Origin: Macrotrachela quadricornifera
Lineage: Eukaryota > Rotifera > Eurotatoria > Philodinida > Philodinidae
Reading direction: 5' to 3'
Length of the DNA: 64,000 bases
Assembly: GCA_022393335.1 (NCBI GenBank)
Contig: JAJEKB010021002.1
Coordinates: 1,070,739-1,134,738 of the forward strand
Each line of letters opens with the position of its first letter. The stretch's first letter is position 1. Below the pieces are notes generated by a model. That model saw only the letters and a program-made list of their open reading frames with translations, was not told where the DNA came from and did not search any database. Positions 16,348-61,883 of the stretch are shown in pieces. The position numbers and the translations under genes are program-made.

Positions 16348-18913
16348 TCAAAAGCGTAGGACAAGATTTTGATCCATTCCAGTAGTATGGATATTATCGA
16401 ATGGTATTCCTGTTTGCACCACTGTTTCCCATTTAACCATATTATTTTTGAGCATGTTCATGAAAGGATGTGTTTCTGGTAGGGTACACCTAGCAGCTTG
16501 TGTAAAATATAATTTAGCCTGATCATAATCACCACGATGGGCATAAATTATAGCTATATTGTGTGCAGTTCGTGCCACATCTGGATGACCGGCAGGTAGG
16601 ATCATCTCTTTCATAGTTAGAGACTGTGTAAAATCGTCCAAAGCCAAGTCATAGTGATTTTCTCGATAATGTAGAATACCACGATTATTCAACGTATATG
16701 CAATATTTGGGTGATTTGGTGGTAGACTACTTTGAAAGATTTTAAGTGCTCGTGTAAAACAAGAAAGAGCTTCATCATATTGTTCTTTTTGGCTATAAAG
16801 ATCGCCCAAATTAACAAGAGTTCCACCAATATCTGGATGATTTTGATGGACGGTCTTGGCATAGAGTTGGAGAGCTTCTTTGAACGATTTTTCAGCCCAA
16901 TCAACAAAGCCTTGCTCGATATAAACAATCCCAATTGAATTGATTGTTTTGGCTGCACTTATTAAACGAGGTGGTCGAGCTTCGGAGTGTGATTTATGAG
17001 CGTAATGAAAATTGTCAAGTGCACGTTGATATTCACCTTTGAGACGATAAGCTCGTCCAATATTATGATAGATGCAAGCAATTTCCTCGTCATTCGGATT
17101 TGATGATTGTAAAATTGTGTGAAAATAGCTTTCAGCTTTCAAATATTCTCCTGTTTCAATCAATAAATGACCAAACATGAGAATAATAGTCGATTCGGCC
17201 ACTTTTGCCCTCTGATATTTAATATATTCCGAAGCAACCTCGGCACCTTTATCAGTGGCATTTGCCTTGATAACCCATAAATTTTCTTCAGTACTATATA
17301 TACATGATTCTATTTGAAACGCAGCTCCTAATCAATAAAAGAAGATAGTGTTATTTTATTATTTATGTAGCAATCATACCCAAATCAAAGAGCACTTCTT
17401 CTTCTTCTGGAAATTTGCTGTATTTAACGATGTCGGCAAGTATAATTGTCTTGATCGATGTGAAGTCTACAGTATACTCGAAAATAACTCTTACAACATT
17501 CTCCCGTTTCGTTGGCATTGTAGCAAAATGATACGCTATTTTACGATTACGGCTCGTTGACAAGTATCCATTAACTGAAATTAAATTGCCAACACTCTTT
17601 TTAAAGTTTTCAATTTCGTCTAATGATACTTGAAAGCCACGATAAAGATGAAGAATATTTTCTGTATTTTGATGTTTTAGTTCCTTGCAACACCTCTCTA
17701 ATTCTTTGCATAGATCGATGATATAGAAACGAAAATGATACAATGCATCGATATCTTCTGTACGTAATGCTTTATTAATAAGACGATAAACAAATGTGTC
17801 AGCAGTGTACCACGGAATAGCATCACTTGATTTGTAATTACGTTCAAAATTATCAATATTTTCTGTTTCTTTAGCATTACCTCGATAATAATCACGACAT
17901 TTTGAAATCATTAATTGTTTGGCTTGTGTACTTTCTGTCATACTAAAAAGAACATCTTTGAATAATTGGAAGAAAAGAAAAGAGCCTGATTCTCGAGTAA
18001 GATCGCGTGTTGACTTTTGGGTTTGATCATAAATGGCAAAAGCAGCCTTCTGTTTTTGAATTTGTATTTGTGCTTCTTTTATTCCATTAATCAAAGATAT
18101 TTCATTGGAAAAGTATGCTGTTACCCATGTGGGAACAACATTAGGCGGTTCTGATGTAAAGAGAAACACTGAATCAATTTGTTTTGACGTTGTTAATCGA
18201 TTAAATAAAGTGTCATCAATATAATCGATAATGAGAAATATGTTTGCTTCACTAGCCGATTCGAGTAAATCCAATGCTTCTTTTTCATTATAACAGACCT
18301 ACAAAACAATATATAGAACATAAAAATATTCTTGGACAAAAATGATTATTTAAAATTAATTTTATTTCTATCTGTTCCAGATCATAGTGGGTTATTCGAT
18401 ACAATAGGATACATGTTTAGTTATATTTGATTTTTATAAAGCACACACACTCAAACAATATGGATTGAGTTTTAGAGAGTTGAAGTATTGTTATATTAAT
18501 TATTAACTTCTTGTTTAAAAATAAACTGGATCTTCCACAATTTGTTTTTTTTTCTTATTCCAACGCAATTTCAAGATATGGCATTTCTATAGGAGACAAT
18601 TTTTCTTTTGAAGCCTTTGAACAGATTGATGATTATGCGTCAATATAGAATTTGATTTAGTAAAAAACCCAAATTTTCAATCTGAACTTACCTGAATAAA
18701 ATCGTTGACAGAACGAAGCAATTGAATTAATGTATTTTGTTCGGTAATTTCTCTATGACGTGTTAACCAGATGATTGTAATATCTTCTTCATTCCGTACT
18801 GATGAAACAGTTAAGGGGACTAGATTGAAGTGATTTTCGCGAGTGTCATCATCTCTTCGTAAATCAGCTGGACGTATAATTCGCCTGATTAAAGATCGTA
18901 TATTGCTTAACAT
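16348..18913 (-). CDS. NAD:arginine ADP-ribosyltransferase with C-terminal TPR repeats
   Basis: Three exons, 18913-18692, 18298-17380 and 17327-16348, joined at phases 0 and 1 give 706 residues without stops. After an N-terminal region of unknown role, the ART fold shows the R-S-ExE triad of arginine-specific enzymes: LYRGFQ (Arg), VNGYLSTSRN (Ser-Thr-Ser) and FPEEEEVLFDLG (ExE). It would transfer ADP-ribose from NAD to protein arginines. The last ~280 residues are at least five kinesin-light-chain-like TPR units (for example YHNIGRAYRLKGEYQRALDN, TINSIGIVYIEQGF, NLGDLYSQKEQYDEALSCF), probably for partner binding. No signal peptide, so probably cytoplasmic. ART-TPR fusions are strongly expanded in bdelloid rotifers. 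Intron 1 is about 390 bp, intron 2 only 52 bp. Confidence 0.9.
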
Positions 18914-22700: not shown

Positions 22701-24645
22701 TCATAAAAATAAAATTACTAACTGATTTCGTTGACCTTGTAATCGTGTTCTTAACGTTGTTCTATATCTCTTAACAGTAGTACGAAGTTCTGTCCTATAT
22801 AATTTTGATGGTAAAACAAATATAACAAGACAAAGCATTGATGGGAGAAATGAAACAAAATATCCAATAAGATATAACCATGGTTTTCGAGTTGATTCAA
22901 TACAACCTGAAACAAAAGATATAATTAAACGTGGTAAAGCAAGAATAGTTAAAAGTATTGGAGCGATTAATAAATGACGATGACGTTGAAGTTGTTGTAA
23001 TAATAATGAACGATGACGGGATTCTGTATTTTCCACACGTGTTTTTTGTCTAGCTGTCATTACAATAATAATAATAGCTGACATAATATTAGTAATAAAT
23101 GGAATAAAAAAATGAAATATATGAATAAATTTATCATAAAATTGAATATTAGATGGATAAGTAAGAATACACCAAATACGTTTTTCATCATCATTATCAT
23201 TACTATTTAAAAGACGTCGATAAATTGGATCATGAATTGTTGTTGAAATCATAAAAATAATTAATATAATAATCATATATTTAGCCATTTTAATACTCTT
23301 TTTTTTACTAAATTTTGGTCCTTTAATTGCATTAAATGCTCTTTCTGTAGCAACACATGCATTTAACCATTTATCCATATATAAACAAATTCTTAATATA
23401 AAATCAATTGAATGACATTGAATATTAAGAAATGAATGATTTGTAATATATGATATTTGTGTTATAAGTAATATTAAATATTTTAATAATAATATAATTG
23501 AAATAATTATAGTTGTTATTGATGTTCCTAATAAATACAAACCACATCCAACTTTTTGTGTTTCTTTATTCATAAATGTAATTAATGATAATATTCCATT
23601 TATAAAACCTATAATAAACATAATTATTGTTAATGATAAACTAAATTTAATAATAAATGTTTGATAATTAATATTAATATTTGGTTGAATATGATAACCT
23701 AAGATTCCATCAAGTGATAAATCAAATATATTTGAAATAAATTCACATCTTATTCCATAAGTACATTTTGGACAAATACATATTGATGTTTGTGGACAAA
23801 TTAAATTATCTTGTAAACATTGTGCACCATGTTCACAATTACTTAAACCAAAGCAATCATGTTTTATTAATGAATTAAATTCAAAACAATTAGATAAACG
23901 ATTTATACCAAATTCATAACAAAAACAAAAATAATTTTCATCATAAAAACAAGATAATAATGGTTTATGATTTCTTTGACATGGTAAATGATAATATTTA
24001 ATTCGACGAATAATATGATAATTAATTATAGTTTCATTAAATATTTCATTTATATGTTTACAATGATCTGATGAATCAATTCTTTTTGATATATTTATTT
24101 TTTGATTCGATGTTTTTTCAACAGTAATTAAATAATAATTATTATTAAAAAGTTCAATAAAAGCAATATGAAATGGATGTGACCAACGAATACTAATTGA
24201 ATTTTGATTAAGAGGAATATTTTTAAAAGTAGAACCATTTTCTGATGGACCATTATCAATAGCTCGAATAAAATGAATTAACATAACATTTGGTAAAATA
24301 ATATTTTTATCAAATGATAATATTATTTCATTATCAATTATTTCACATCGTTTTCCACTAAAACCTTTTGGACAAATACATATAAATTTTTCATTAGATA
24401 TTATATATTCATCAATAGGTATACATTGACCACCATTTAAACATGTCGAAGTTTCATTAGATTGACAAATTGTATGTTTCAATAAACAACGAGAACTCCA
24501 TTTGTTCAAAGGACAAATACAAATTGATCGATTATTTGATAAAATTCCAATACATAATGAATCAGCTGAACACATACATTTATAAGATATATTACAAGAT
24601 TTTCCAGACCAACCAGAATTACATTGACAAAAACTAAGATTTTTT
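22701..24645 (-). CDS. C-terminal part of split EGF/7TM receptor (EGF repeats and GPCR domain)
   Basis: This is the 3' part of a receptor gene cut by the transposon at 24646-35468. The open frame starts at the insertion point in the middle of an EGF domain (FCQCNSGWSGKSCN), followed by further Cys-rich EGF-like units (NGGQCIP...CICPKGFSGKRCE; CEHGAQC...CICPKCTYGIRCE). Then come seven hydrophobic segments of a rhodopsin-like GPCR: TM1 IIKFSLSLTIIMFIIGF, TM3 followed by ERAFNAIKG in the place of the DRY motif, and TM7 ending FVLPSKLYR. The tail is basic. In the undisturbed gene the protein would be a cell-surface receptor with ligand-binding LDLa/EGF ectodomain. No intron is seen in this part. 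As it stands it lacks a start codon in a sensible place. Confidence 0.85.
24638..24645. repeat. Left 8-bp target-site duplication (GATTTTTT)
   Basis: GATTTTTT directly precedes the left terminus of the 10.8-kb element and recurs directly after its right terminus at 35469-35476. The T-run on the right is two bases longer, so 8 bp is the shared length. Confidence 0.85.
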
Positions 24646-25395
24646 ACGTAGGATATCTTATCACCCGATTCGAGTATTTCTTCTCCCGATTCGATTCCAA
24701 ATGGATTCCAATCTCGTTATCTTGGTTTCCAAGTGTAACTTGACGAGCTCTATCGATTCCAAGCACCTATTCCCCTCATACACCCCCCCTAACCCCCCGA
24801 AACCCAAAAAATCACTAAAAACTACCTAAAAAAAACCTAAAAAACACGCCAATTTCAGAAATGTCATTCCCGATTCGTTCCTAAGCCGATTCCAATGAAA
24901 CCAAGTAGGTTTCCAAGTGTAACTCGATGAGCTCTATCGATTCCAGGGATTTTTTTTCTCACACGACCTTTCTTTACCCTCAAAATATCCCAAAAACCTG
25001 CAAAAAATGCTAAATTTCCTCGAAATACCCTTCCCGATTCGCTTCCAAGTCGATTCCAATGAAATCAAATAGGTTTCCAAGTGTAACTCGATGAGCTCTA
25101 TCGATTCCAGGGGTCTGTTTTCTCACAAGACCTTTCTTTACCCTGAAAATACCCCAAAAACCTGTCAAAACGGCCAAATATCCTAGAAATACCCTTCCCG
25201 ATTCGCTTCCAAGTCGATTCCAATGAAACCAAGTAGGTTTCCAAGTGTAACTCGATGAGCTCTATCGATTCCAGGGATTTGTTTTCTCACAAGACCTTTC
25301 TTTACCCTGAAAATACCCCAAAAACCTGTAAAAACGTTCAAATTTCCTCGAAATACCCTTCCCGATTCGCTTCGAAGCCGATTCCAATAGAATTG
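24646..25395. repeat. Left inverted-repeat array (about 4 units)
   Basis: The unit contains GTTTCCAAGTGTAACTCGAT followed by GAGCTCTATCGATTCCA; it starts near 24729, 24909, 25073 and 25236, a period of about 164 bp (180 for the first). The outermost unit differs, with a C-run (CACCCCCCCTAACCCCCC). The array is the reverse complement of the right array. Confidence 0.9.
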
Positions 25396-26314
25396 ATGAT
25401 GATTCTAGATAGATTTCAACTTGGTCTTTTGATTACACACCCCATTCATGAATTTGGTTTGTGTTTGTGCCTAAAAAGTTGCGAATTACTTTATTGCTGG
25501 TAGCCAATGATATTCACAAACGAAAGTTATTGTAATTTGCAGATTTGTATTTTATTTTCAGAAAAATAAAGAATGATTACAATACAGAGCACACTTTTTA
25601 ATGGAATTTATCTCAAAAGAAATAAAACTATTAACTATATTAATAAGCGAAATTTGTATTACAGAAGAAAATATTTTTTTCACTTTCTCAAATCTTGAGC
25701 GGAAAAATGAATATTATAAAAATTAAAGAGATGATCAATTTTCTAAAGAAAGAATTTATGATTATAATTTCCATGTCAAAATATATTCGATATGTTGCTA
25801 ATTGAATTACATTACATTTTGAATAATAAATTGTATATATAAGATTAGTTCTCTTTCGATAGGTCAGATATTCATCTAAACGGATCCTGTGGCAATGGGT
25901 TTTATCTTTGAAATGAAAAATTGTTAAAACAAAATCTGATATCATAAAGAAAAAATAAGATGTGGAAGAAAAGACGTTGCTTTTTCGATACGATCGTCTA
26001 CAAGATTGTATTATGCTTTGCTTTTCATCATCTAAGTGGTGTACCTGATTAGATAGATGAAAAGATATTATATGAAAAAATTATTTTTCTCGTCGGATGT
26101 CGTCAAATGAATTTTTTCTATATGGCGGTATTGTAATATCCATTGGTCGGCTTGAAATATTTGTTTAATAGTGAAGAAAAAAACGTCATTCATTTATTCT
26201 CAGTTAATCACATAGATCGACAACAGCTATTTATTTAATCACAAATTCTAATACTGCTCTTGGCTGAATCAGGAAATTGGTTTTATTACAATTTAATTAT
26301 ATTGATATAGTCAA
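25396..26314. other. Internal 5' spacer of the transposon
   Basis: AT-rich, between the left repeat array and the transposase start. It probably holds the transposase promoter; no other feature is recognised. A minus ORF at 25688-25945 has no support. Confidence 0.4.
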
Positions 26315-29300
26315 ATGATGTCTGATCCGAATTCACATAAAGTAGGTAAGGATATTTGGACACTTACTAGTCTAGAAGAAATAGTTGCTGCTATTGCTTC
26401 ACTTGGTGATCGTTATAAAGAACTAAATGAGGAGACATGGCGATTAAATGCTAAAACAAAATTATCGACTTCACTTTGGGAGCAACTTATTAAAAAATTA
26501 GAACTTGATAATACTGAAAAAAGGCGCCACTCTTTGTACAATATATGGAGATCAACAGTTCATTGCGTTCCTGAACGTGTCAAAAAAGAATTAGAAAGAA
26601 GAAAGAAAAATATAATTGATGAAGATAATGATAATATCAATGCAGAAGAAGAAGTATCTGTTCAAAAGAATAATAATGTACAATTAATGCCTGACCCATC
26701 ATTACCGTTACCTGAACCGCCGAATACACGTACTCGTAAGGCAAAAACTCTAAATGATAATATTATTGAACAGTCAACTGTCAGTGAAGTATCATTTATT
26801 TTGACTGCAGCTGAATGGAAAGCTGTAGTTAGTTGCACAAAAAAAGAATTACATAAGGGTTGGACAAAAATATTTTCCGACAAACTAACTTCATGTGGAA
26901 TAACATGTGCATTACAATTTTTTAAAACACACATTAAAAAAGGAAAAAGAAAACGACATTGTAAATATTTTTGGTGTCGTTCTAAGTGCACTGGTGAGTA
27001 TTGCACTAGATCATATTTTATTAAACTTGTAGGTAGTGTGGATTTCAACGGATCACCAACATTTCGTACACAAATCTCAGGTACAGAAAGACATGATGCT
27101 GAAATTGCAACAATGAAACGTCAACTATGTGGAGAGGAACGGTATTGTGTCGGTGAGGAGTTGTCTTATTTATTACACTTAGAAACTACATTGTGATGAT
27201 CTATTTATTTTAGGAAAGCGAGCAAATGAAATTGGTCCTTTAGCAGTATTTCGTGAACAAGTAGAAGCTGCTGATGAGAATTTGCTCGCAGCAGGGAATT
27301 ACACTGAATGTAATACAATTGAAGTAATAAAAAAAGCAGCGGTCGATTATCGTAAAAAACATCAAATAGACGAAAATATTTACACAGCATGTCGCATTAT
27401 TGCTTCTGCTTATGATAAAGCAGATGTCACGTCCACTAGTGTGAAAGGTGAGTGATTAATATATTAGAAGAAAATATTTTGTCTTTTTTTCTCAGGATAC
27501 GTTCAAGTTTCTGGTGAAATGCCATTTCGTGCACATCTTTTTTCTGAACCACAAATTGAGTTATATGCCAATTATTGTAAAAAGGAAAAATATTCATATG
27601 TTCATGTCGATGCTACGGGTGGTGTCTTAAAACGCATTTCCGGACAAGATCAAACATTACTTTATACAATGGTTTTCAAAGATGGAACTGATTCTATTAA
27701 TACTATTCCGCTTGCACACGCATTTCTTTCAAATCATACGGTTCCTAGCATTACTTATTTCTTAGGAAACGTAGCACAAGAAATTACCGACTTAAAAAAA
27801 AAATTAATTCGTCCTTCTTTTTTTGTAATTGATTTTTCTGCTGCTCTTATGAATTCTATTCTTCAAGCATTCAATCAAGAAAGTATCAATACTCATTTAA
27901 ATCGATGTTGGAATGTTTTAAATCGAAGTTATAACACTGTACAACTGCGAGAATTATCATTTATACATTTATGTTGTGCTCATGTAATTAAAGCCATAGC
28001 AAGAAGCTTAAATGCTGCATGTATAGATAAAAAAATTCGACGAGGTATATTACATATATTTATGCTTATTTTATGTGGCAATAATCTCAATCAATTATAT
28101 GATATTCTTGGCTTAGTGATTGATATATTCGGTGACCCAGACGAACAGAACGCAAGAGAAAAATTCGAAAAATTACTCTCTCTTGAATTAGATATAGATG
28201 AAGAAAGTGTTACTTTATTATCTGATCACAAGAAAACATTAGAAGAAGCGAAAAAGGAAAATGATAAATTAAAAGTTGTAGATGAATATTTTCGTTCAAG
28301 TACTGCTATTATCCATCAATCACCTTTTAATATAGAAGCTATTCGACGTTATCCTCATCTTAAAACTCTCATTAATAACAAATCCAAGTATGATACAAAT
28401 GTTAATCCATTATTTTCTCCACTTCTTATCCGTATTTTCTATCGATGGTGGGCGTATTTACCATTATGGACAGGCGTACTATGGAATTTTGAAGAACGAT
28501 ATTCAAATAATCTGGAAATTAATGCATCTGTTATATATAATCCAATACGTCATTCAAATGCAGTTATTGAGAGTTATTTTCGTACATTTAAAAATAGCAT
28601 TTTAAAACAGAAAGTTGGCACTCAACCACAAAAAATAATCGAAGAACTATATCGAAGCATCCAAGTACAACTTAAAGCTCTTCAATACGAAGTAACACAA
28701 AGTTCAAAAGGAAGAAAACGAAAAATGAACCGAGATGGAGGTTGGGCTAAAAAAGGTATTGGTAAAAAATGCCGAAATCTATATGGAAAAGCAATTGATG
28801 CATTTGCATCAAAATATAATCTTTCAAAAATGAAAAATGCTCAACCGAATAAAGTTACAAAAGACAACAGGTATAATCTTTAAATTTAAAATACTGTAAC
28901 ATTATTTCTCTCTTTAGTGAAGAGGATACCGCCTCGAGCGTTTCATCATCAGATCAATCTCCAACTCCTCTTGATGAATTAAATGATAAGATCTGTTCGA
29001 GGTAAGACAAAAATTTTTTTTTTCATACAGACGGATACTTAATTTTTTTTCCAGAGAACCTTCTGTGTCAAGTAACAACAGTTCTCGATCATCCTCACCT
29101 AAATCTGTTATAGTGGTAAGTAACGAATATTCTATTAATGATCGATTGAATTCAGATAAATCGACATCCGACGATCAACAAAGTAAACTTCCAGTTAAAA
29201 TTGACTTTGATAACGATGACCTCAACAACAACATGTTTTCCATTCTGGACACAGTGTATTCTAGTGACAATCGTATGTATTAATATCGAAGTTTTGGATT

Positions 29301-30547
29301 AGGAAGATAAATTTTTCTTAATCTAGAATACATGTTACCAACTACTCAACCTTCGTATCACCCAGAGGCACTGATTGATGGTCATTTAATGCAATGGCCA
29401 CGATTTGGAATAAAAGAAGTCATTTTCAGGGGTAATTAAAGAATAAAAAATTAATGTTTTGTTCGCTGTAGGTAATTTCATATAATCTTTTTTTTTAAGG
29501 TCGATCTTATACTCTCACTAATACTTGTCCTACAGATTCGGCATTATTTGCATTATATTTTATATATAAAACTGATATTAATATTGCTGGGACATTAAAT
29601 CATGCACCTAAAACATCAGCATATTCAACACTTGTTAAAACTTTTCGTACAGTTGAAAAAGAAGGTTGGGATGCTGCTCGTCTTAGCTGGTTGCATGAGC
29701 ATGGTATCTTACAACATGCCGCTGAGAAAAAAAGTCTTTTTGGCTCAGCAGACAAACAAGTATTTCATTTTCTTATGCGTGAACAACAGCATTCTTCTCA
29801 GATTGAATGTTCAAGAGTTCAATGCAAAAAAAGAAGACGTAACCGAACAAACACAGAATTGTGTCTTTTGTGAGTATCGTTTATTCGAATTGCTTTTTTA
29901 AACAATAAAATTTTGTTGTTAGCACGTTTGAAGATTACATTCGAGATTTTAATAACGAAACTACTGATGCTTGTGATATAATGATGGTACGATCTGATGA
30001 AATAACTACAGAAGAAGCACGTGAATATAAATATCGAAGTGTTACAATGCTAACAACTGATGGACAGCCAGACGAGTATGATTATGTCACGTTATTTTAT
30101 TTTTTCTAATAATATTGAATTTTTTCTTCTTCTTTATAGGCATGCATGGGTATGCAATGCCACTGCTCATGTGTCTGTGGCTAATTTTACACATAGTCAT
30201 CCGCCGATTATCATAGTTAACATCAGACATTTACCAAAAAATAAAAAAGGATCTGATGATCGTTCTCCTCAATTACTTGATTTAATACGCGAGATAAAAA
30301 TCAATTCTATAAAGTAAATTATTTAAACGTTTATTTTTTTTTCTAACTTTTTGTAATTTTTATTGTCAGATACAGACTGGGAGCGGTAATACATCATAGA
30401 TATCAACCTGTTGAACATTTTACCGCTACTCTCCTCGGTAGTGACGGTCAACTATATTTATACGACGATTTAAAAGGTGTAAAAAAATTGTCAACTTCAA
30501 CAGACAAAATAGTCTATGCAGTTTATACTCAAATCTATACAATTTGA
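26315..30547 (+). CDS. MULE/FB-NOF-like DDE transposase fused to a C19 (USP)-like cysteine protease domain
   Basis: Ten exons: 26315-27152, 27214-27447, 27496-28870, 28918-29001, 29055-29272, 29327-29431, 29500-29869, 29923-30075, 30140-30313, 30370-30547. Every junction is GT-AG and in phase; the sum is 3729 nt, 1242 residues with no stop. N-terminal: a zinc-ligand-like patch (HCKYFWCRSKCTGEYC). Core: RNase H-like transposase with candidate acidic residues in YVHVDATGG, FFVIDFSAALMN and AVIESYFRTFKN, and a CAH motif (IHLCCAHVIKAI) after the second one, as in MULE/NOF proteins. A Ser/Asp-rich linker is followed by NTCPTDSALFALYF (candidate catalytic Cys box) and VEHFTATLLGSDGQLYLYDD (candidate His/Asp box), the layout of ubiquitin-specific proteases. 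Family names are from recognition, not search. Confidence 0.8.
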
Positions 30548-31509
30548 CAGCTATTGTATTATTCAATTGTTCCTTTCTTATTTGTTTTACAACTGATATT
30601 TCTGTTAGAAAATTTTGTTGAAGAAAATGAAATAAAACATGATTGTCAAAAAAAAACATATATACGATAATTGATCACATATCCAAATATGATTATCTAT
30701 TTATTCCAATCAATTCATCGTTCATCAATATAAAAATAAAAGAATGAAAAGAAAATTTTTTATTTGTGATATATAAACTTGAAAGATTTTTAGTCAACAT
30801 TAACATAAAATGATTGATGAATAAGAGTAGTTATAAATTTTGATGCATTGATTCTATTAGATTTATAAAAATAATTTGATAGCAAAAGAGTAATATGTAT
30901 ATATTTAAAAGGCTCATATTATTATTCTTCCTCACCTTCAGATATATTTGAATCAATAAATAAAATTATTCATTGAAGAAAATAACATAGTGCCATAAGG
31001 GATAAATAAGATGACCGATTGAATAGACGTCAGCTCATAATAGGCACAAATTAGACGGATATATGTCTATGTCATTTTGATTGACTTGTAAACAATAACA
31101 CTTATTTATCAGTATGTACAAAGTTGAAGCTCATCATCGAAGAAAAAAAGGATAAATGAACAGAGGACTAAATAGAAAATCATGTAAAAGACAACTCATT
31201 CATATATGACAAATACTCGTATTATTTTTGATAAATATATATTCAAATAATAGTATGTATTCATATACATCAATGTTCTTTTTCTTTTTCATTGCAATAT
31301 CATTGTTTTGCTCATAAATACATCAAAGAAGAAACATAAAAGAAAGAATAAAATCGTCTAACTTGTTGAGGTTCACTCTTTGAAAGTACCCATTATCAAC
31401 AAGGTTACATTGATGAACAAATATGTAATTTAATTATCTATTGGATCCACAAATCTTTATATATACAGCCAAAAAAGCAGGATAATTTTCATTCAATAAA
31501 ATAACTATC
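30548..31509. other. Spacer between transposase and membrane-protein genes
   Basis: AT-rich with no recognised gene. It should hold the transposase terminator and the promoter of the next gene. TATATATA-like words occur near 31240 and 31455. Confidence 0.4.
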
Positions 31510-32109
31510 ATGCATTCAATTATCTTCTTCTCTACTCTTTTCACATTCGCCATATCTGCTCATGTAAGTTAATCTCATTGATGTATATCGATTCTTATAA
31601 TTCATTTCAATATTATAGATTTATAGTAATTACGAGCAGTACGTTGAATATGAAATTTCAAACAAAAACACCACTACCATTATTCCTCATAACACCACCA
31701 TACCTCTTGTCATTACCACCACAAATATTATTGATAAAGCTAAAAGCGCCTCAAAAACAATTAAAGATTATACTGAATCTTTTGCTATTCTTTTTCCTTC
31801 TGTCTTCGGTGCTATCACAGTAATTTATGCAATATTAATGTATGTAATTAAATTTTATAAAAATAATTTTAAATTTAAAGTAAGAAATTATTTAAATTTT
31901 TTTTTTATTAATGGTAACTTCTTTTAGTGGTCTTGGGTAACAATTAAATCGCCGGCAGAATATGAACGTCGTCGTCGAAGAACAAATGGTGAATAAATAA
32001 CGATCAGTTTCTATTTATGATTTTTTTTTTCCTTTTAGATGAAGTTACTTCAAATGAAAATTCGCCACGTATTGAAGAAGTATATAATTCAATAGATGCC
32101 ATTGTATAA
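31510..32109 (+). CDS. Small type I membrane protein carried by the transposon (four exons)
   Basis: Exons 31510-31563, 31619-31879, 31928-31988 and 32039-32109 join in phase (0,0,1) to about 148 residues. It begins with a signal peptide (MHSIIFFSTLFTFAISAH), has an N-glycosylation-rich ectodomain (NKNTTT, HNTT), one membrane segment (VFGAITVIYAILMYVI), then a basic juxtamembrane patch (YERRRRR) and a short acidic tail. I do not recognise the family. Its place directly before the envelope-like gene suggests the two could act together at a membrane, but that is speculation. Too fragmented by introns to show as one ORF. Confidence 0.7.
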
Positions 32110-32560
32110 ATTTTCTTTTTTTTTCTTATGTTTATATCTTATTTGTTTGTCTTATTTATTTAATAAATTACAAAATATTTCTTTTAATAGATGAAATATA
32201 TTGACTTGTTTATTTGATGTTCTTATATCAAATCGATGTATCTTTATCAACTTGATGATAAAGAAAATATCAAAAAGATATATATCTTGTTTGTGATGAT
32301 CAAATGAATTTTTAATCGTGTGTCGAAGAGAACACATTCGCGAGATATCTTTTTATATATTATAACAAACTTTCACTCTTTTTTTCTTCCAACCATTTCT
32401 CATCGTTTTTTTTTGATAATTTTTTCTTGTATACAGACACATATATATATATAATAGGCAATTTGAAGAAAACATTCTTTTGCCCGATCTGTTATTCACA
32501 TAATATTTCGTAACACAAGTTTCAATCATCGATATAAATATTCATTTCCATTGAGTTAAG
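32110..32560. other. Spacer with TATA-like run before the envelope-like gene
   Basis: AT-rich; contains ATATATATATATAATAGG near 32440, a plausible core promoter about 110 bp upstream of the next start codon. No other gene seen. Confidence 0.35.
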
Positions 32561-34066
32561 ATGCTTGATGTTTCTAAATCAGTGTTAGTGTATTCCATGA
32601 TTAACTGCATTACAGTTGTTACACTTGTCTCCATAAGAGAATTGTCAACTGATGATATCATTGTTAATATCAATAAAGGTTATGCTCTTCAACGTATTGG
32701 TACTTATTCAACGAATATGGTAGAAGAAGTTGTGCATACATTTTTATCACTCGATAATTTTTGTGCCGTACAAACAACGAACGCTGTGTGTAAATATACT
32801 TCATCATCGCCAGCGACAAACATTATTGAACTTGCCACTATAATAACATCTGATCATATAAGACACACATCATTTAGTTATGACAGAGATAATGCGTCAC
32901 AATTGATTGCAAAAGATTTAAACCGTGTTCTTGTACAACATAAGTCAAATGAATTTCTTCGAGATACTCAATCAAATATTCATTTTATTAATGACAAATT
33001 TTATTATAGCAATAATGCCGCCAAATTATCACCAGCAACAACTTCTATTAATACCGTTGATAATAATAATAATATACTACAGTTTCGTCCAACATCAGTA
33101 GATATGATTATGAAACAAATTAACAACAACAAAATAAGTTTTGAATATTTGTCTCTTGCTGATTTAAAATTGTTTTTAACAATTGTATTTTCCAATCTTG
33201 ATAATTCGTACAAGATTAATGATGTTGAAGATTCTTTAAATGCTTTTTCTCAAATAGTCATTGGACAATCTATCTATGCTCTACGTTATTGTGGATTAAA
33301 TAGACAACATTCATTGTCTTCAAAACCATGTCTAGTAATTTCAACATTATTTATACGAACTCCATCAAACAGTCCATCAGTTTATTCAATTTATCGTTTG
33401 TTTCCGTTACCAGTAGTTACTAATGGTAATAAATATATTTATTCTGATCTTCCAAAAATCATAGGAATTAATTCTGTTGAACAAACACTAATTATGTGGA
33501 ACAATCTATTTAATAACAATAAATGCACATTCTCACCTATCGTGTTATGTCATATCACACCTATTTCAATATCATTATTGTCATCGTCATGTCTATCTCA
33601 ATTATTTGACGATTACCAATCTGTTTCAAATATGTGTCAAGTAAGTCGAACACAAAATATTGAAAAAGCCGTATTACGCATTGATGATGGACTATGGCTA
33701 TTTTATAATACGAATCGTACATTTTACTGTCAAGTTTATTCGCATCTATTTCAATTGACTGAAACTATGTCAATTGATGCACCAGCCATTGTACGTATAC
33801 CGTGTCATAAGACAATGATATGTCCGGATTTTCAATTACCTATCACGACGTGTAAAACAAATCGAATTATCGTCACACCTGGTTTTGAGTTCAATATTCT
33901 AAATTTACCTCAATTTGTCGTACCAATTAAAAACATGACACAAACGCTTATGTCACTTCATCATATACAGCTAGAAAAATCAATCAAAGAAATGATATCG
34001 ACTTTCTCATTAAAACAATCAAATTTTCAAGATACACTCCGTGAATTTGCATTATATATTTTATGA
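32561..34066 (+). CDS. Envelope-like glycoprotein carried by the transposon, broken by a stop before the membrane anchor
   Basis: Single-exon frame of 501 codons. It starts with a hydrophobic leader, has many Cys residues in the second half, and includes patterns common in retroelement/viral envelope proteins: a YRLFPLPV segment, paired LC...SC cysteines, and an I..GLWLFY-type segment before a proline/cysteine-rich block. No known fusion peptide or furin site was identified. The frame ends in TGA at 34064-34066; the same frame stays open for about 40 further codons and there encodes a hydrophobic stretch followed by a Lys-rich tail, so the present stop appears to remove the membrane anchor. 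It may be a real inactivating change, a recoded stop, or a secreted form. The envelope assignment is tentative (pattern recognition only). Confidence 0.5.
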   Translation: MLDVSKSVLVYSMINCITVVTLVSIRELSTDDIIVNINKGYALQRIGTYSTNMVEEVVHTFLSLDNFCAVQTTNAVCKYTSSSPATNIIELATIITSDHIRHTSFSYDRDNASQLIAKDLNRVLVQHKSNEFLRDTQSNIHFINDKFYYSNNAAKLSPATTSINTVDNNNNILQFRPTSVDMIMKQINNNKISFEYLSLADLKLFLTIVFSNLDNSYKINDVEDSLNAFSQIVIGQSIYALRYCGLNRQHSLSSKPCLVISTLFIRTPSNSPSVYSIYRLFPLPVVTNGNKYIYSDLPKIIGINSVEQTLIMWNNLFNNNKCTFSPIVLCHITPISISLLSSSCLSQLFDDYQSVSNMCQVSRTQNIEKAVLRIDDGLWLFYNTNRTFYCQVYSHLFQLTETMSIDAPAIVRIPCHKTMICPDFQLPITTCKTNRIIVTPGFEFNILNLPQFVVPIKNMTQTLMSLHHIQLEKSIKEMISTFSLKQSNFQDTLREFALYIL

Positions 34067-34344
34067 GGTGTGTGTTGCATCTTCGTTATGATCGTCTCGT
34101 ATATGTTTAAATTCATCAAATATAAAGTATTGAAACCAATAAACAGTCTTGATTCTCAAATTCAAGACATTATTAACTTTTGATTTTCATGATTCTTTCT
34201 AACTATTGCTATTCATACTAATACAAATTGTTTGTTATATATAATAAAATTCCTCTAATCTTCTAATCAAATTAAATAAAAAGAAAATTGTAAAACAAAC
34301 TATTGTGAGGATAAAAGTACGAAGCCATCAAACAAAGAAAGTGT

Positions 34345-35468
34345 CTTCTTAGGTCGATAGAGCTCATCGAGTTACACTTGAAAACTTACTTGGTTTCATT
34401 GGAATCGACTTGGAAGCGAATCGGGAAGGGTATTTCTAGGAAATTTAGCATTTTTTGAAGGTTTTTGGGGTATTTTGAGGGTAAAGAAAGGTCTTGTGAT
34501 AAAACAAATCCCTGGAATCGATAGAGCTCATCGAGTTACACTTGGAAACCTACTTGGTTTCATTGGAATCGACTTGGAAGCGAATCGGGAAGGGTATTTC
34601 GAGGAAATTTAGCACTTTTTGCAGGTTTTTGGGATATTTTGAGGGTAAAGAAAGGTCTTGTGATAAAACAAATCCCTGGAATCGATAGAGCTCATCGAGT
34701 TACACTTGGAAACCTACTTGGTTTCACTGGAATCGTCTTGGAAGCGAATCGGGAAGGGTATTTCTAGCAAATTTAGCCTTTTTTGCAGGTTTTTGAGGTA
34801 TTGTGAGGGTAAGGAAGGGTCTTGTGATGAAACAGACCCCTGGAATCGATAGAGCTCATCGAGTTACACTCGGAAACCTACTTGATTTCATTGGAATCGA
34901 CTTGGAAGCGAATCGGGAAGGGTATTTCTAGCAAATTTAGCCTTTTTTGCAGGTTTTTGGGGTATCTTGAGGGTAAAGAAAGGTCTTGTGAGAAAACAAA
35001 TCCCTGGAATCGATAGAGCTCATCGAGTTACACTTGGAAACCTATTTGATTTCATTGGAATCGACTTGGAAGCGGATCGGGAAGGGTATTTCTAGGATAT
35101 TTGGCTGTTTTTACAGGTTTTTGGGGTATTTTGAGGGTAAAAAAAGGTCTGGTGAGAATAAAAATCCCTGGAATCGATAGAGCTCATCGAGTTACACTTG
35201 GAAACCTACTTGGTTTCATTGGAATCGGCTTAGGAACGAATTGGGAATGACATTTCTGAAATTGGCGTGTTTTTTAGGTTTTTTTTAGGTAGTTTTTAGT
35301 GATTTTTTGGGTTTCGGGGGGTTAGGGGGGGTGTATGAGGGGAATAGGTGCTTGGAATCGATAGAGCTCGTCAAGTTACACTTGGAAACCAAGATAACGA
35401 GATTGGAATCCATTTGGAATCGAATCGGGAGAAGAAATACTCGAATCGGGTGATAAGATATCCTACGT
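34345..35468. repeat. Right inverted-repeat array (about 7 units)
   Basis: Units beginning TGGAATCGATAGAGCTCATC recur near 34351 (partial), 34511, 34675, 34839, 35003, 35167 and 35351, a period of 164 bp. They are the reverse complement of the left array; the outermost unit has the matching G-run (GGGGGGTTAGGGGGGG). Seven units here against four on the left shows expansion or contraction of the array. Confidence 0.9.
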
Positions 35469-35476
35469 GATTTTTT
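35469..35476. repeat. Right 8-bp target-site duplication (GATTTTTT)
   Basis: Direct copy of 24638-24645, immediately outside the right terminus (…CCTACGT). It lies within the EGF-coding exon of the receptor. Confidence 0.85.
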
Positions 35477-38283
35477 TTATTATTAAAATATTTAATACAA
35501 TGACCATGATGACAAATTTTATCTGAACATATTTCATTTGTATTCATAATAGGTGGAATATTAAGCTGAAGAGAAATACGTTCGACAGGTAAAAATGGAT
35601 AATTAAGTGGAAGAAATAAACTTCCACGATATTTAAATAAAATTTTTTCATATATATCAATGTGAATAAAATAATTTTTTGTTAAATTTTTTGGTCGAGT
35701 CGAATAAAGTAAATAAATATTATATTTAACTTTACAATGTTCAACATAAATATAAGTTAATTGTTGATATGAATGAATTATTCTTTCATTTGTATCATCC
35801 ATAAGTGAAATTATTATTGAAAATAATGTTTTTCGTGAATCAGAATATGTTTGAAATTTTAATGTTAAACTAACACGATCATTTTGATATTGACATTGTA
35901 AACCATAATAACTAGGTGGACAAAGACAAACTATTCGACTATTATTATTATTTAACCAATTTTGAAAAGGTAAACCACGATGACAATATTGATCAGATTT
36001 ATCAATTATTTCAACTGACTTAATATGTTTCATTTCATCTTTCGGAATTGATTCTTTTAATTTATTGACAGAAAAATGTACAATTGTCATTTTCTCCAAA
36101 TCAACAGGACGTCGACAAAGAAATTCTTGAACATCAGTGCGACTTGATTTATAATCTGAATCACAAACAAAATTCAAAGGACTATTTGGCTTTAGACTTC
36201 GATTACATATTGGTTCATAATCTTCATACATACATTGCTGACGGCCATGACATCGACCAAAAGACGATATGCACGGTTCAAATGTATTGTTCTTACAATA
36301 AAAATTGAATATATATGGTTGATGAATATTTGATCGACATAATTTTGGTTCATCAGTAGCACCAACACAATCAATATAACCATCATTTGCTTTTGAAATA
36401 GGTAAACACATTAGTTTATATGTATTAGGTGAAATACAAATATGATGATAAGATGGACATCTTAATAATGGATATAAATCACAATCAACTTCATCAGCTC
36501 CATTAAAACAATTCCAAAATCCATCACATCGTGTATATGTATTATTACATTGCCAATATTCACATTCACTTTCATCAGTTTCATTTCGACCATCAATATT
36601 AATTGAAAATAATTCTATAAAACCATCACAAATTGTTGTAAATGATATATGTTTTTTCTTATAATGTTCAATTGTATATTCATCATCACATACACCAGGT
36701 TCTTCTGAAAAACAATCACATTTACCATCGCCGACCATTTTTAAAGGTAAACATTGACTTCCTTCTGTACATCTGAAAAACATTTTTGATCCAATTGTAG
36801 GACAACTACCATTGATTGGTGAACAATGTTCATCATCTTTATAATCACAATCTTTTTTACCATCACATAGACGAGATTTTGAAATACATTTTGAAGAATT
36901 TATGCATTGATACATTGTTGTATAATTACAAATATTTGAATTATTATATTTAATTATATTACAATGAGAAAAATAACGATCGAATAATAAAATATACCTA
37001 GTTAATCTATTATATCTTGATTCGACTGAAAATTCAAATGGAAAATCCTGTAAACGACGACACGTTATATTATTAAATTTAAGTAAATTTCTATTAGGAT
37101 AGAATCCATCACAAAGATTTTCATTGTAACAAGCATAATCAGGAGCATACGAATTCATCGAAGGTAGAAGAGTCATTTTCTTATAAGCTATATACATATG
37201 ACCAAAGGCAAGTGGAGCATCGGGTATGACAAGTAGATCTGGACATGTTTCATTTATTATTTGTTTGCATATATTTCTATCAAAGCATAAATTCACACAT
37301 GCTGAATCAATATAATTTGTAATAGAATAAATGCATCGAAATGCTAACCAACAAATATTTGATAATGATTTTGGTGTATCAGAATCAATTGATTTCATGA
37401 GTAAAATATTACGTGTTAATCGACATGAACTAGTTATTATTGCACCAATGGATCCAAAACGTGAAGGACATAAAATATCTTCACTACCGATTGTCGGTTC
37501 ACTAGCCCAATTTTCTTCCACTGATTTTTGATAAAGATCAATTTCATCTGATTGATCGAGACATTCGAAAGTATTTTTATCTCCATCACGAAAGAATATT
37601 TTCGATATACATTGTCCACTATCACATTGACGTTCATTTTCATCACATTCTTGAGTTTCAATTTGCCAACAATTAACTTCATCTATTGCATTATTTAAAC
37701 AATCAATATGTCCATCACATACTTCACTCCAATCAAGACATATGGATGGAGAACCACGATTACATTCAAAATGAATATAACATGTCAAATTAGTAGGTTC
37801 ATAATATTGTTGATAAAAATCATAAATAATATCATTTAATGATAAATAATCATCATTTTTATCAATATCTAATTCATATTGACATAATGATCCAAATTTT
37901 GGTAATGTACAATTGTAAAATAATTCTGTTTCCATTGAAGATAATTTTTGATTTAAATAGAATTGATATCGTTCAATAACATCCATTGGTGCTGACCAAG
38001 AATATAATTGTTCACTTGTTAGATTTTCTTTTGAAAGTTGAGAAAAAGTAAATATTTGATTGTGATTTGGTTCGACAATTTTCCATATTGTTGGCCATTC
38101 AGTTAAACAATAAGAAATAATCTCATGGAAATTATTTTCTTTTTTAATATCAGCAAATATATAAAGACAATTATATTGAAAATCAATATTGGTTATTTCA
38201 TCTGTTAGATGAAGATTTATTTGAATTGAATTTGTTGTCGAATATAATAAAAATAAGTAGAAGAAAATCTTCATGAAATGCAT
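35469..38283 (-). CDS. N-terminal part of split LDLa/EGF/7TM receptor
   Basis: Minus-strand frame from ATG at 38283 with a signal peptide (MHFMKIFFYLFLLYSTTNS). Multiple LDL-receptor class A modules follow: CLDWSEVCDGHIDCLNNAID near residue 180, then CDSGQC, CISKSRLCDGKKDCDYKDD near 465, CDGFWNCFNGADEVDC near 590 and others less regular. An EGF domain (CLCPPSYYGLQC) follows near residue 810, and the first half of a second one (CSDKICHHGHCIKYFNN) runs into the transposon boundary. LDLa modules bind calcium and ligands. In the unbroken gene this ectodomain is joined to the 7TM part at 22701-24645. As it stands, transcription would read into the transposon repeat and stop after about 40 foreign codons, giving a secreted ectodomain without anchor. 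Confidence 0.85.
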
Positions 38284-52188: not shown

Positions 52189-53203
52189 GTTCGTAGTTGT
52201 TTTTTTTTCTAATTAATTCGTTGCATATATATATCAAATGAAAAAATATTCATGCGTAATAATTTCTCCATGTACATACATCATTATTTCACTATGTAAT
52301 TTTTTTAGCAAAGATTAATGCATATATTCAATGATTATGAATCAATAATAAAGTAAGGACGATAAGGACAAATATTTCATATGTTAATATTATTATAGGT
52401 GAGAGGTGAAGAACAACGTTTTATTAACCATTCTATAGTTACACACACCACGTGTATAATGACGATTGATCAGCACAATCTTGAGGGTGAGGGTGAGGGT
52501 GAGGGTAGCCTCACCCTCACCCATCCTCAGGTTTCGTTCGCTCTATCAAATGGTATATACTAAGTTGAGGAAAAAGTTCGTGGTCCTTTTCTTAGTGAAG
52601 ACAATTAAAAAAGTGAACGGGAACTTTTTGGTCAACCTAATAATACTATTAGTAGCATGTGTGAAAATTCCGCCTTTTCTCTTACCGTATCCCTTTTCTT
52701 TTTCTTCTATTCTTTTCATTTTTCTGTTTTTTACTTAATCAGTTTATTTACTTCCTTATTACTTTACAAGCATGACCCAATGTTTTTCATAATTAATTAT
52801 AACTGCGGCAAGTTAAGTAACGCATTGCATTAATAATGTAGTTTTTAGCTTAAATATCTCAATTCCTCTGTCTGTTATCGTGTAAGCATTTCCGAGTCTG
52901 ACATTGACTATCATAATAAAAATAAAGCTCGTAAACTTTAGGTTATGACTTTTATTTCAATAGAGACATAAACTGAACGTTCAATAAAGAAAGAGATCCA
53001 GTTTAAAAATGAAATGAGTGTCCCTGGTCGCAGATCATTGAATTGTCTGTATACATTATTCGTTGTAATCGTGCTTCGAATAAGGCCGATTATTCTGTAA
53101 TTGTGTTTGTCTATTTTGTCTCGAATTGATCACTCGATATGTATCAGCAAACTTTCATGAAGTAGCTGCCAGTCTATCAATTGTTATTGGTGTACGAACT
53201 TAC
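52189..53203. other. Intergenic region with G-rich hairpin
   Basis: No gene recognised. It holds the G-rich/C-rich inverted repeat at 52484-52521 and AT-rich flanks. The 90-codon ORF at 52466-52738 overlaps it and has no domain. Confidence 0.4.
52484..52521 (+). repeat. GGGTGA repeat with inverted CCCTCA half (G4-capable hairpin)
   Basis: Four GAGGGT units in a row (a G-quadruplex pattern of four GGG runs) are followed after a short spacer by CCTCACCCTCACCC on the same strand. It can form either a hairpin or a quadruplex. A similar GGGTGAGGGTGAGGG run lies inside the Helitron near 58000. Confidence 0.6.
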
Positions 53204-57838: not shown

Positions 57839-58890
57839 TCTATATATATAAAGAAGAAAGTTTGTTTGTTTGTTTGTTTGTTCGCTTATAACTCAATCCC
57901 GGTAAAAGCTAGCGTCACCAAATTTTCCATGGTACCTCCCCAGGCCCAGAGGAAGGTCATGGCGGGGTCACCCACCGAGGGTGTGGGTGATGGGTGGGTG
58001 GGTGAGGGTGAGGGTGGAATCTCACCCAGATATTACTGTAATAGCTAACATTACCAAACTTTTCATAGTGCTTTCCCAGACTTAGAGGTAGGTCATGGCG
58101 GGGTGACCCATCGAGGGTGTGGGTGAAATCTTACCCAGATAATGCTGTATTAGCTAACATCACCAAATTTTCCATGGTGCTCTTCTGAGTTCAGAGGCAT
58201 TTGTAAAGAGTGCTGTTACCATTAATAGGAGTAGGAAGGAGGCGTCTGGGTGAAATTTCACTGAAGTTCTATCGCAATGAACTTTGCGTTATTTTTCCAG
58301 AAATTTCGCGAATCTGTTATGATTTTAAGAGTAATCGTTTTTTTATCGAGGATTCTTTGGTTTAAATTTGAAAATTGGATGTTTCTAATTTATATATATA
58401 AAGGAGAAAGTTTGTCTGCCTGTCTGTTTTTTATACATTTGGACATCGCACGAGTTGAGGGTGTTAAACTTTTCGTGGCATACTCTTAGGTCTCGAGGAA
58501 GGTCAAAATGGATCAGAATGACTGGCGAGAGGATTGGGCTGAAATTTCACAACAGGTTATGGTACATTACAATTTTCTCCAGTTTTTCAAAAGCTTCAGA
58601 ACATATGCTGCCATTGTTAGAATATCTGCCTGTTAGTGCCAGTTTTTTTGCACTGGGTATTGGTATAAAGTATGGAAATACGCATGAGTGAAGAGAAAGA
58701 CTGTTATACCCACACACTATTTGCTGAATTATCCGATTTAAAAATGAATATAAGTGTATGCACGGCGGGATATGTAGTAATAATAGATGAAAAGGTCTTA
58801 ATCAAGCCTTCTATACATCTTCTGTCGTTTTCTGACATGATAAGTTTCCAGTATGGAGATTTCCCGAGCAACGCCGGGTACTACCGCTAG
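57839..58890 (+). mobile_element. Nonautonomous Helitron, about 1.05 kb
   Basis: Starts TCTATATATATAAAGAAGAA with AAGTTTGTTTGTTTG after a host A, and ends CCCGAGCAACGCCGGGTACT-ACCGCTAG before a host T. The 3' hairpin plus CTAG, and 5' TC, fit Helitron ends; GCAACGCCGGGTA is a common Helitron tail. A second start-like sequence (TTATATATATAAAGGAGAAAG) at about 58391 suggests a composite. ORFs inside are not supported. Confidence 0.85.
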
Positions 58891-60695: not shown

Positions 60696-61883
60696 CTACT
60701 TACTTTTCTCTTTATTATTATTTATTTGTTGATCATCTTCACATTCTTCTAAATCAATTTCAACTAATACTGGTGGATGAAGTATTGGATTATTTTCAAT
60801 TCTATCTTTAATTTGAAATACTGAAAATGGTAATATTAATACTTCTTTTTCATCTTGTACTGTTGATAGATGTTCAATATCAATAGCAGTTTGATTTTGT
60901 TTAATTGTATATTTTAATAAAACAGATATTTGTTCGAAATCCTGATGATCTAATGTTTGTTGTAAAATATTTTCTTGATTATTTCCAGCAAATATTTGAG
61001 CAACTGAACGATTTTTAGATGTTGATGCAAATGAACGATTTAATATATGATTACCAATAGTATAATGTTTTAAATCATTTCTTGTCAATAATAATCCTCG
61101 ATAAGTAATACCTTTATATTTATATTTCTGTATATCTGGATGATTAATTAATAAAGTAACAATATGTACTAAACAATTAATTAAATGATATTTAGTTGGT
61201 GAAGATGAATAAGATGATGTATCAAAATAATCTAATATATATAAAGCTAAATGTTTATTAAGAACACGATGAAAATTATTAGTTAATGTATAAGCTTTAA
61301 TAAAATATTTTAAATAATTTTGTTCTTGAATAGCTTGTTTAAAAAAGCTTTCTAATTTATTTGTTTCATTTTTGGAAAATTGTTCTTGTTTAATTAAATA
61401 ATCATTCAAATAATATTCAATTATTTCAATTAATAATTTTGTTATTAAATGATGTTGATTATCATAAGTTTTATATAAATCAATTTCTTCACGAAATTGT
61501 TTACGTTTTTCTATCAAATTCTTTGCAGTTAATGAACATTCAATATAATCATAATCTTGTATTTCTTCATGAGAATGAAATAAATTGGAATTTTTCAGAA
61601 ATAATTTTTTTATTTCATTCATTTTAAATTCATTATTAGATGTTAATTCATATGAAATATTTTCAAATGATTTTAATGTACGATTTGTTAATAATAATTG
61701 AATTGATTCACTGTATCCATAAATACTAGCACAATGTAATGCTGTCATACCATATGGACCCATTCGAGTAATCGTTTTAATATTATCGTACAATTTAAAA
61801 TACTTTTCGATTTTATTATTTTCATTAATGTCAGATAAAATCGTGTTTAATGGAATTGTCTCTTCACTAACAGTTTCTGTCAT
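60696..61883 (-). CDS. ADP-ribosyltransferase with N-terminal ankyrin repeat
   Basis: 395 codons. N-terminal: one clear ankyrin unit (MGPYGMTALHCASIYGYSES-IQLLL), then a helical, polar region. C-terminal ART domain with R-S-ExE: GITYRGLL (Arg), NRSFASTSKN (Ser-Thr-Ser) and VQDEKEVLILP (ExE). It should mono-ADP-ribosylate protein arginines using NAD; the ankyrin unit may bind a partner. No signal peptide. The last codons are followed by a donor-like sequence (AAA|GTAAGTAG), so an additional 3' exon is possible; if not, the protein ends KEKSK. A MITE sits immediately downstream. It is the second ART in this window, in a different domain architecture from the ART-TPR gene. Confidence 0.85.
   Translation of the reverse strand: MTETVSEETIPLNTILSDINENNKIEKYFKLYDNIKTITRMGPYGMTALHCASIYGYSESIQLLLTNRTLKSFENISYELTSNNEFKMNEIKKLFLKNSNLFHSHEEIQDYDYIECSLTAKNLIEKRKQFREEIDLYKTYDNQHHLITKLLIEIIEYYLNDYLIKQEQFSKNETNKLESFFKQAIQEQNYLKYFIKAYTLTNNFHRVLNKHLALYILDYFDTSSYSSSPTKYHLINCLVHIVTLLINHPDIQKYKYKGITYRGLLLTRNDLKHYTIGNHILNRSFASTSKNRSVAQIFAGNNQENILQQTLDHQDFEQISVLLKYTIKQNQTAIDIEHLSTVQDEKEVLILPFSVFQIKDRIENNPILHPPVLVEIDLEECEDDQQINNNKEKSK

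Follow-up and report, generated by a model that had tools for sequence, protein, structure and literature searches.

FB-NOF of Drosophila has long foldback arms of tandem units and a large coding middle, and in both respects it is like the element described here, a 10.8-kb foldback DNA transposon of the bdelloid rotifer Macrotrachela quadricornifera. The element lies in a stretch of 64,000 nucleotides (hereafter the window; positions 1,070,739 to 1,134,738 of contig JAJEKB010021002.1, assembly GCA_022393335.1), where it occupies 24638..35476 counting both target duplications. Compared by description and not by sequence, it differs from FB-NOF in its 8- or 9-bp duplications and in two products, a small membrane protein and a fusion glycoprotein, neither of which, to our knowledge, belongs to FB-NOF. 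The Tm1 Mutator/Foldback family of root-knot nematodes shares with the element composite foldback terminal inverted repeats (TIRs) and an intron-bearing transposase gene of the Mutator-like element (MULE) type. However, Tm1 is 2.6 kb long with a 496-aa transposase and 9-bp duplications, and the portion of its description at hand mentions no envelope-type gene (PMC3169594). Rehavkus, a MULE relative with a minisatellite ahead of its 3′ TIR, is unlike the element in its 9-bp duplications, PHD finger and single open reading frame, according to the available extract (PMC6446971). Foldback MULE-like elements are thus already known from these partial accounts of Tm1 (PMC3169594) and Rehavkus (PMC6446971), and an excerpted survey gives arthropod MULEs a size range of 1.4-10.0 kb (PMC13359780). 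With a probability of roughly 0.72 for the explanation as a whole, we read the element as a young, multi-copy MULE-like foldback DNA transposon that carries a transposase and two membrane-protein genes, one of them of fusogen type.

Retroelements and Mavericks are both known to carry viral fusogens, and Mavericks are virus-like in other genes too. Among bdelloid mobile elements, the env-bearing long terminal repeat (LTR) retrotransposons of the TelKA clade carry a paramyxovirus-type class I fusion glycoprotein; unlike the element, they have gag and pol, and their env is, in the sections of the report available, a clear pfam00523 relative with an RxxR and a fusion peptide (PMC5408684). Fusogen-bearing Maverick/Polintons of nematodes, from work by Widen as summarized in a meeting report (PMC10680173), likewise join a DNA transposon to a viral-type fusogen and have been tied to horizontal transfer. 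Mavericks, however, encode polymerase, integrase and capsid proteins, for which the element has no long frame left. Among the matches listed from the open-licence PMC literature, none describes a cut-and-paste transposon with an envelope-type gene. A simple cut-and-paste transposon retaining a viral-type fusogen is a possible new point.

The element sits precisely within a receptor gene, which it disrupts. The target duplication GATTTTTT, found by end comparison at 24638..24645 on the left and 35469..35476 on the right, is an exact match of exactly 8 bp; as a chance control, identical 8-mers occurred in 12 of 200,000 random pairs from the window. By frames and domain scan, the upstream part of the receptor (35477..38277, minus strand) holds LDLa repeats and the first half of a split EGF domain, and the downstream part (22701..24645, minus strand) holds its second half, another EGF and the seven-transmembrane (7TM) region; the Pfam domains in the two halves are LDLa, EGF and rhodopsin-type 7TM. 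The flanks joined through a single duplication copy yield one uninterrupted minus-strand frame that is 1584 codons long and, counted from its Met, encodes 1583 aa. Across the junction, the length of 56 residues recurs in 67 of 89 alignment rows, the remaining 22 having 52-63 residues (the rows are the receptor and 88 homologs longer than 1400 aa, drawn from the best 120 of 649 protein-database homologs at E ≤ 1e-20). All four receptor paralogs fetched from the same genome run gap-free through the junction, with 797-799 of 800 bases aligned at 96.5-97.1% identity. Since the duplication, the joined frame, the homolog lengths and the gap-free paralogs agree, the insertion is real and defined to the base. 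The disruption of the receptor with its 8-bp duplication, and the in-frame rejoining of the EGF halves, are therefore as the earlier note had proposed.

Among the protein-database matches listed, the receptor is closest to a protein of R. sordida (69% identical), and the organism-named relatives within the best 120 of the 649 homologs are from Adineta or Rotaria. At this distance, the source would be a bdelloid other than the named ones, or the locus a fast-evolving paralog. The receptor family has been amplified recently in the source genome: a 600-base probe gave at least 16 near-full-length matches at ≥89% identity, self included, with the best 40 of 167 candidates in the assembly scored. 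This family may itself have been duplicated by some mobile mechanism.

Both ends of the element read inward as ACGTAGGATATC. Arm alignments place the left arm at 24646..25437 (plus strand) and the right arm at 34354..35468 (minus strand), built from a tandem unit of ~164 bp that is present four times on the left, a divergent outermost unit counted, and six times on the right, the outermost likewise counted. From the tips, the first 211 bp are all identical, and 279 of the first 280; the arms align to each other over 792 bp at 91% in one comparison and 741 bp at 94% in another. The outer units are each other's best pairs (L0/R0 100%, L1/R1 99%), and the inner units are 90-98% identical to one another. 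Ungapped counts of the arms came out low in several other copies, which we attribute to indels, and these counts were left aside. Long inverted ends of tandem units together with a target duplication characterize the Foldback (FB) type, and the claim of a foldback DNA transposon thus holds.

The transposase gene (26318..30547, plus strand), modelled by splicing and 16 relatives, comprises ten exons (26318-27152, 27214-27447, 27496-28870, 28918-29001, 29055-29272, 29327-29431, 29500-29869, 29923-30075, 30140-30313 and 30370-30547) and encodes 1241 aa free of stops, with introns of 47-68 bp that are GT-AG throughout. Exon 8 could end at 29925, 30075 or 30090, each of which keeps the frame; 30075 was chosen. 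When the earlier note called the ten-exon gene of the element intact, this was right for the transposase; the glycoprotein of the element, described below, ends before its membrane anchor. All 16 relatives (best 8000 candidates scored) are from Adineta or Rotaria. The Pfam MULE transposase domain PF10551 matches three of them, weakly (best E 0.0091). A scan of three window exons gave no match to it; of the transposase-like families, rve_3 came nearest there (E 0.2). Where the residue is present among the relatives, the candidate catalytic columns hold the first D in 12 of 13, the second D in 14 of 14 and the E in 15 of 15; these columns would be the D, D, E catalytic motif. Target duplications of 8-11 bp and long TIRs are typical of the MULE superfamily, and duplications of 8 or 9 bp flank 7 of 11 two-ended copies. 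None of the 11 Pfam families that the relatives matched is a PHD finger, a Rehavkus feature. With moderate confidence, we regard the transposase as MULE-like and do not file it under NOF; its earlier description as NOF-like is not established. In the C-terminal region (29327-30547), T-C-P-x-D, H-F-T-A and Y-D-D are conserved in most relatives having it, and we presume a likeness of these Cys/His/Asp-Asp stretches to a cysteine peptidase triad. Pfam gave no match for this region in the window exons scanned or in the relatives, and the predicted structure is too poor to use (predicted local distance difference test score 35.6); because the fold model is unusable, the peptidase reading is a guess.

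Two further genes lie behind the transposase, in fixed order in several copies, and are linked in other species too. The earlier note mentioned a cargo and missed its nature, which is our main result: one gene encodes a small membrane protein, the other a fusion glycoprotein of the class I viral type. The glycoprotein gene (gene 3; 32561..34066, plus strand), recognized through relatives and a fold test, is a single exon of 501 codons. Its relatives number 55, and the organism-named ones are from Adineta or Rotaria. Among 36 aligned relatives, every row shares 11 cysteines and 35 also have a twelfth; the 12 are kept where identity to the first row falls as low as 28%. Hydrophobic segments occur at the N-terminus in 29 and at the C-terminus in 35 of the 36. 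The relatives thus have an N-terminal signal and a C-terminal membrane anchor, and full-length ones, from several species, reach ~540 residues; the window copy keeps all 12 cysteines, but its frame stops at 501 codons, before the anchor. The protein shows the F-type fold of class I viral fusion glycoproteins, and its membership of this fold class is strongly supported. Neither a conserved RxxR position nor a strongly hydrophobic internal segment, as would mark a protease cleavage site with its fusion peptide, was found in the 36 aligned relatives, and no Pfam fusion-protein family appeared for the glycoprotein or its relatives. Sequence searches of the PDB with the glycoprotein and with profiles of the glycoprotein and transposase families gave no credible match, and no relative turned up when viral and prokaryote contigs were scanned. 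For the element frames in the window, neither Pfam nor PHROGs gave anything above noise, and PADLOC matched neither of two relatives.

Gene 2 (31510..32109, plus strand) is modelled with four exons (31510-31563, 31619-31879, 31928-31988 and 32039-32109) encoding 148 aa; this is one among several possible splice models, with the end of the last exon computed from lengths. Its predicted product has an N-terminal hydrophobic segment, a transmembrane segment and a basic tail, in which the motif P-A/S-E-Y-x-R-R-R occurs. A relative of gene 2 is fused to the glycoprotein in the R. magnacalcarata gene prediction P0032 (database name 'Envelope protein'), and others are fused to the transposase in the R. 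sordida predictions P0063 and P0064; the fusion matches had phmmer E values of 1e-10 and 1e-7 in a search against 71 proteins. In Rotaria sp. Silwood1, the transposase P0069 and the glycoprotein P0051 are both listed with a longest contig of 10279 bases, which we read as one contig. Because of the fused predictions and this contig, we consider the linkage common to several species.

The earlier note had named a lack of other copies with the same termini as a possible refutation; such copies exist. In the assembly of 450 Mb and 5695 contigs, the left end gave at least 55 matches, some overlapping, with the best 40 of 90 candidates scored. We fetched 15 further elements: 10 two-ended, 4 one-ended (two of them mostly N) and one on a contig that ends inside the element on both sides. 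Together with the window copy, 11 are two-ended and span 1.5 to 13.2 kb; seven are flanked by perfect duplications, of 8 bp for the window copy and three more and of 9 bp for three, and four have none, which could be due to recombination between copies. Transposase, gene 2 and glycoprotein occur together in 5 of the 16 elements, counting the window copy and the end-less contig. One more lacks a transposase match but keeps gene 2 and a glycoprotein gene interrupted by four stops. Four hold glycoprotein fragments only, in one case beside a second, distant stretch that is glycoprotein-like. A short transposase piece goes with broken glycoprotein pieces in one element and stands alone in another, and four match none of the three genes. 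The glycoprotein frames of the other four three-gene copies have 540 codons in two, 501 in one, which shares the end of the window copy, and run into an assembly gap in the last. In four copies, exon 3 of the transposase matches the window copy at 99.3-99.9% identity, and the glycoprotein DNA of the five copies is 98.7-99.7% identical; the family is therefore young, as had been claimed for the element. Over the 10 copy pairs, the ratio of nonsynonymous to synonymous change (dN/dS) of the glycoprotein is 0.27-0.44 in seven, 1.4 in two and undefined in one.

In the foldback copy L017 (2778-4110), glycoprotein gene fragments of 87-94% identity are accompanied, on the opposite strand, by a glycoprotein-like stretch of 28-31%; the latter is of another lineage, which either sits nested inside this one or has recombined with it. 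The window glycoprotein (32561-34066) is 91% identical over 314 aa to protein P0009 of Rotaria sp. Silwood2, a closeness that may reflect horizontal transfer. The best Silwood2 receptor relative, among the matches listed, is 56% identical, but the receptor family is paralog-rich and hence an unfair host-gene yardstick.

We suggest that the transposase would bind the repeated arm units and that the element would be moved by cut-and-paste through this enzyme of its own. In copies with an anchored glycoprotein, this protein and the small membrane protein would sit on cell or vesicle membranes, and membrane fusion could give element DNA, or cells that contain it, passage from cell to cell or between individuals, a route already proposed for Mavericks with a fusogen and for retroelements with env. 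Such fusogen-aided passage is our hypothesis, in line with the conserved frames, the linkage and the low dN/dS in seven of the ten pairs, and with precedents among bdelloid LTR elements (PMC5408684) and nematode Mavericks (PMC10680173), each known here from part of its report. Several points weigh on the other side: the frame list of the element has no capsid or packaging gene, the window copy is anchor-less yet inside a young insertion, dN/dS is 1.4 in two pairs and undefined in a third, and the supposed role of the glycoprotein in transfer is drawn from sequence. Because its glycoprotein has no anchor, the window copy can by its own genes move at most inside the genome. A copy of this kind remains mobile there, so that the truncation is compatible with a part played in occasional transfer. 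An 'infectious' cut-and-paste transposon in the full sense, that is, a MULE-like foldback family free of capsid and polymerase that spreads between cells and bdelloid lineages by a putative fusogen and a partner membrane protein, in the manner of retroviruses and Mavericks, is a tentative proposition.

Some endogenous retroviral env genes are known to interfere with infection. Env-type proteins of the element might similarly block related viruses or elements, helping the host and so the transposon, and an anchor-less form such as that of the window copy would be secreted and could block receptors; with no related viral contig found in the viral contig scan, and the anchored form usual in relatives, we hold this to be improbable. 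Retroelements and viruses are the usual carriers of class I env genes, and the glycoprotein could be what is left of an endogenous virus or LTR element after a chance landing inside the transposon. This is hardly credible, as five copies hold the same three genes together, the linkage extends to other species, and the longest frame of the element beyond these genes has 152 aa and lies antisense to the transposase. An LTR retrotransposon or retrovirus is likewise rejected for the element itself, whose ends are inverted and not direct and which has no further long frames for gag and pol, as is a Maverick/Polinton, since with frames of at most 152 aa beyond the three genes no family B polymerase, integrase or capsid was found; a gene of many short exons would escape this argument from frame length. 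An env-type module may instead have been taken once from a bdelloid retroelement or RNA virus and be hitch-hiking with no role for the transposon. Captured env genes in bdelloid LTR retrotransposons, as partly seen in PMC5408684, the lost anchor of the window copy with a frame end recurring in another copy, and the fragments persisting in shorter copies speak for such a passenger. We nevertheless find it unlikely, given that several species have the genes linked and relatives of ~540 aa, and given the 12 cysteines retained to such low identity, and dN/dS below 0.5 in 7 of 10 pairs.

Elsewhere in the window, adjacent frames at 16348-18298 have TPR repeats and an NAD:arginine ADP-ribosyltransferase-type domain, and a frame at 60696-61883 combines ankyrin-like and ADP-ribosyltransferase-type parts. 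Short contig-internal arrays, telomere-like in appearance, of (TGAGGG)n and GGGTGAGGG type lie at 52482-52506 and 57979-58017.

The fusogen-aided passage proposed here raises the question whether copies with an anchored glycoprotein are spread more widely across species than anchor-less ones. If it is true, DNA transposons of this kind might be able to leave the cell, and would have a route of entry into the asexual, desiccation-prone bdelloids.
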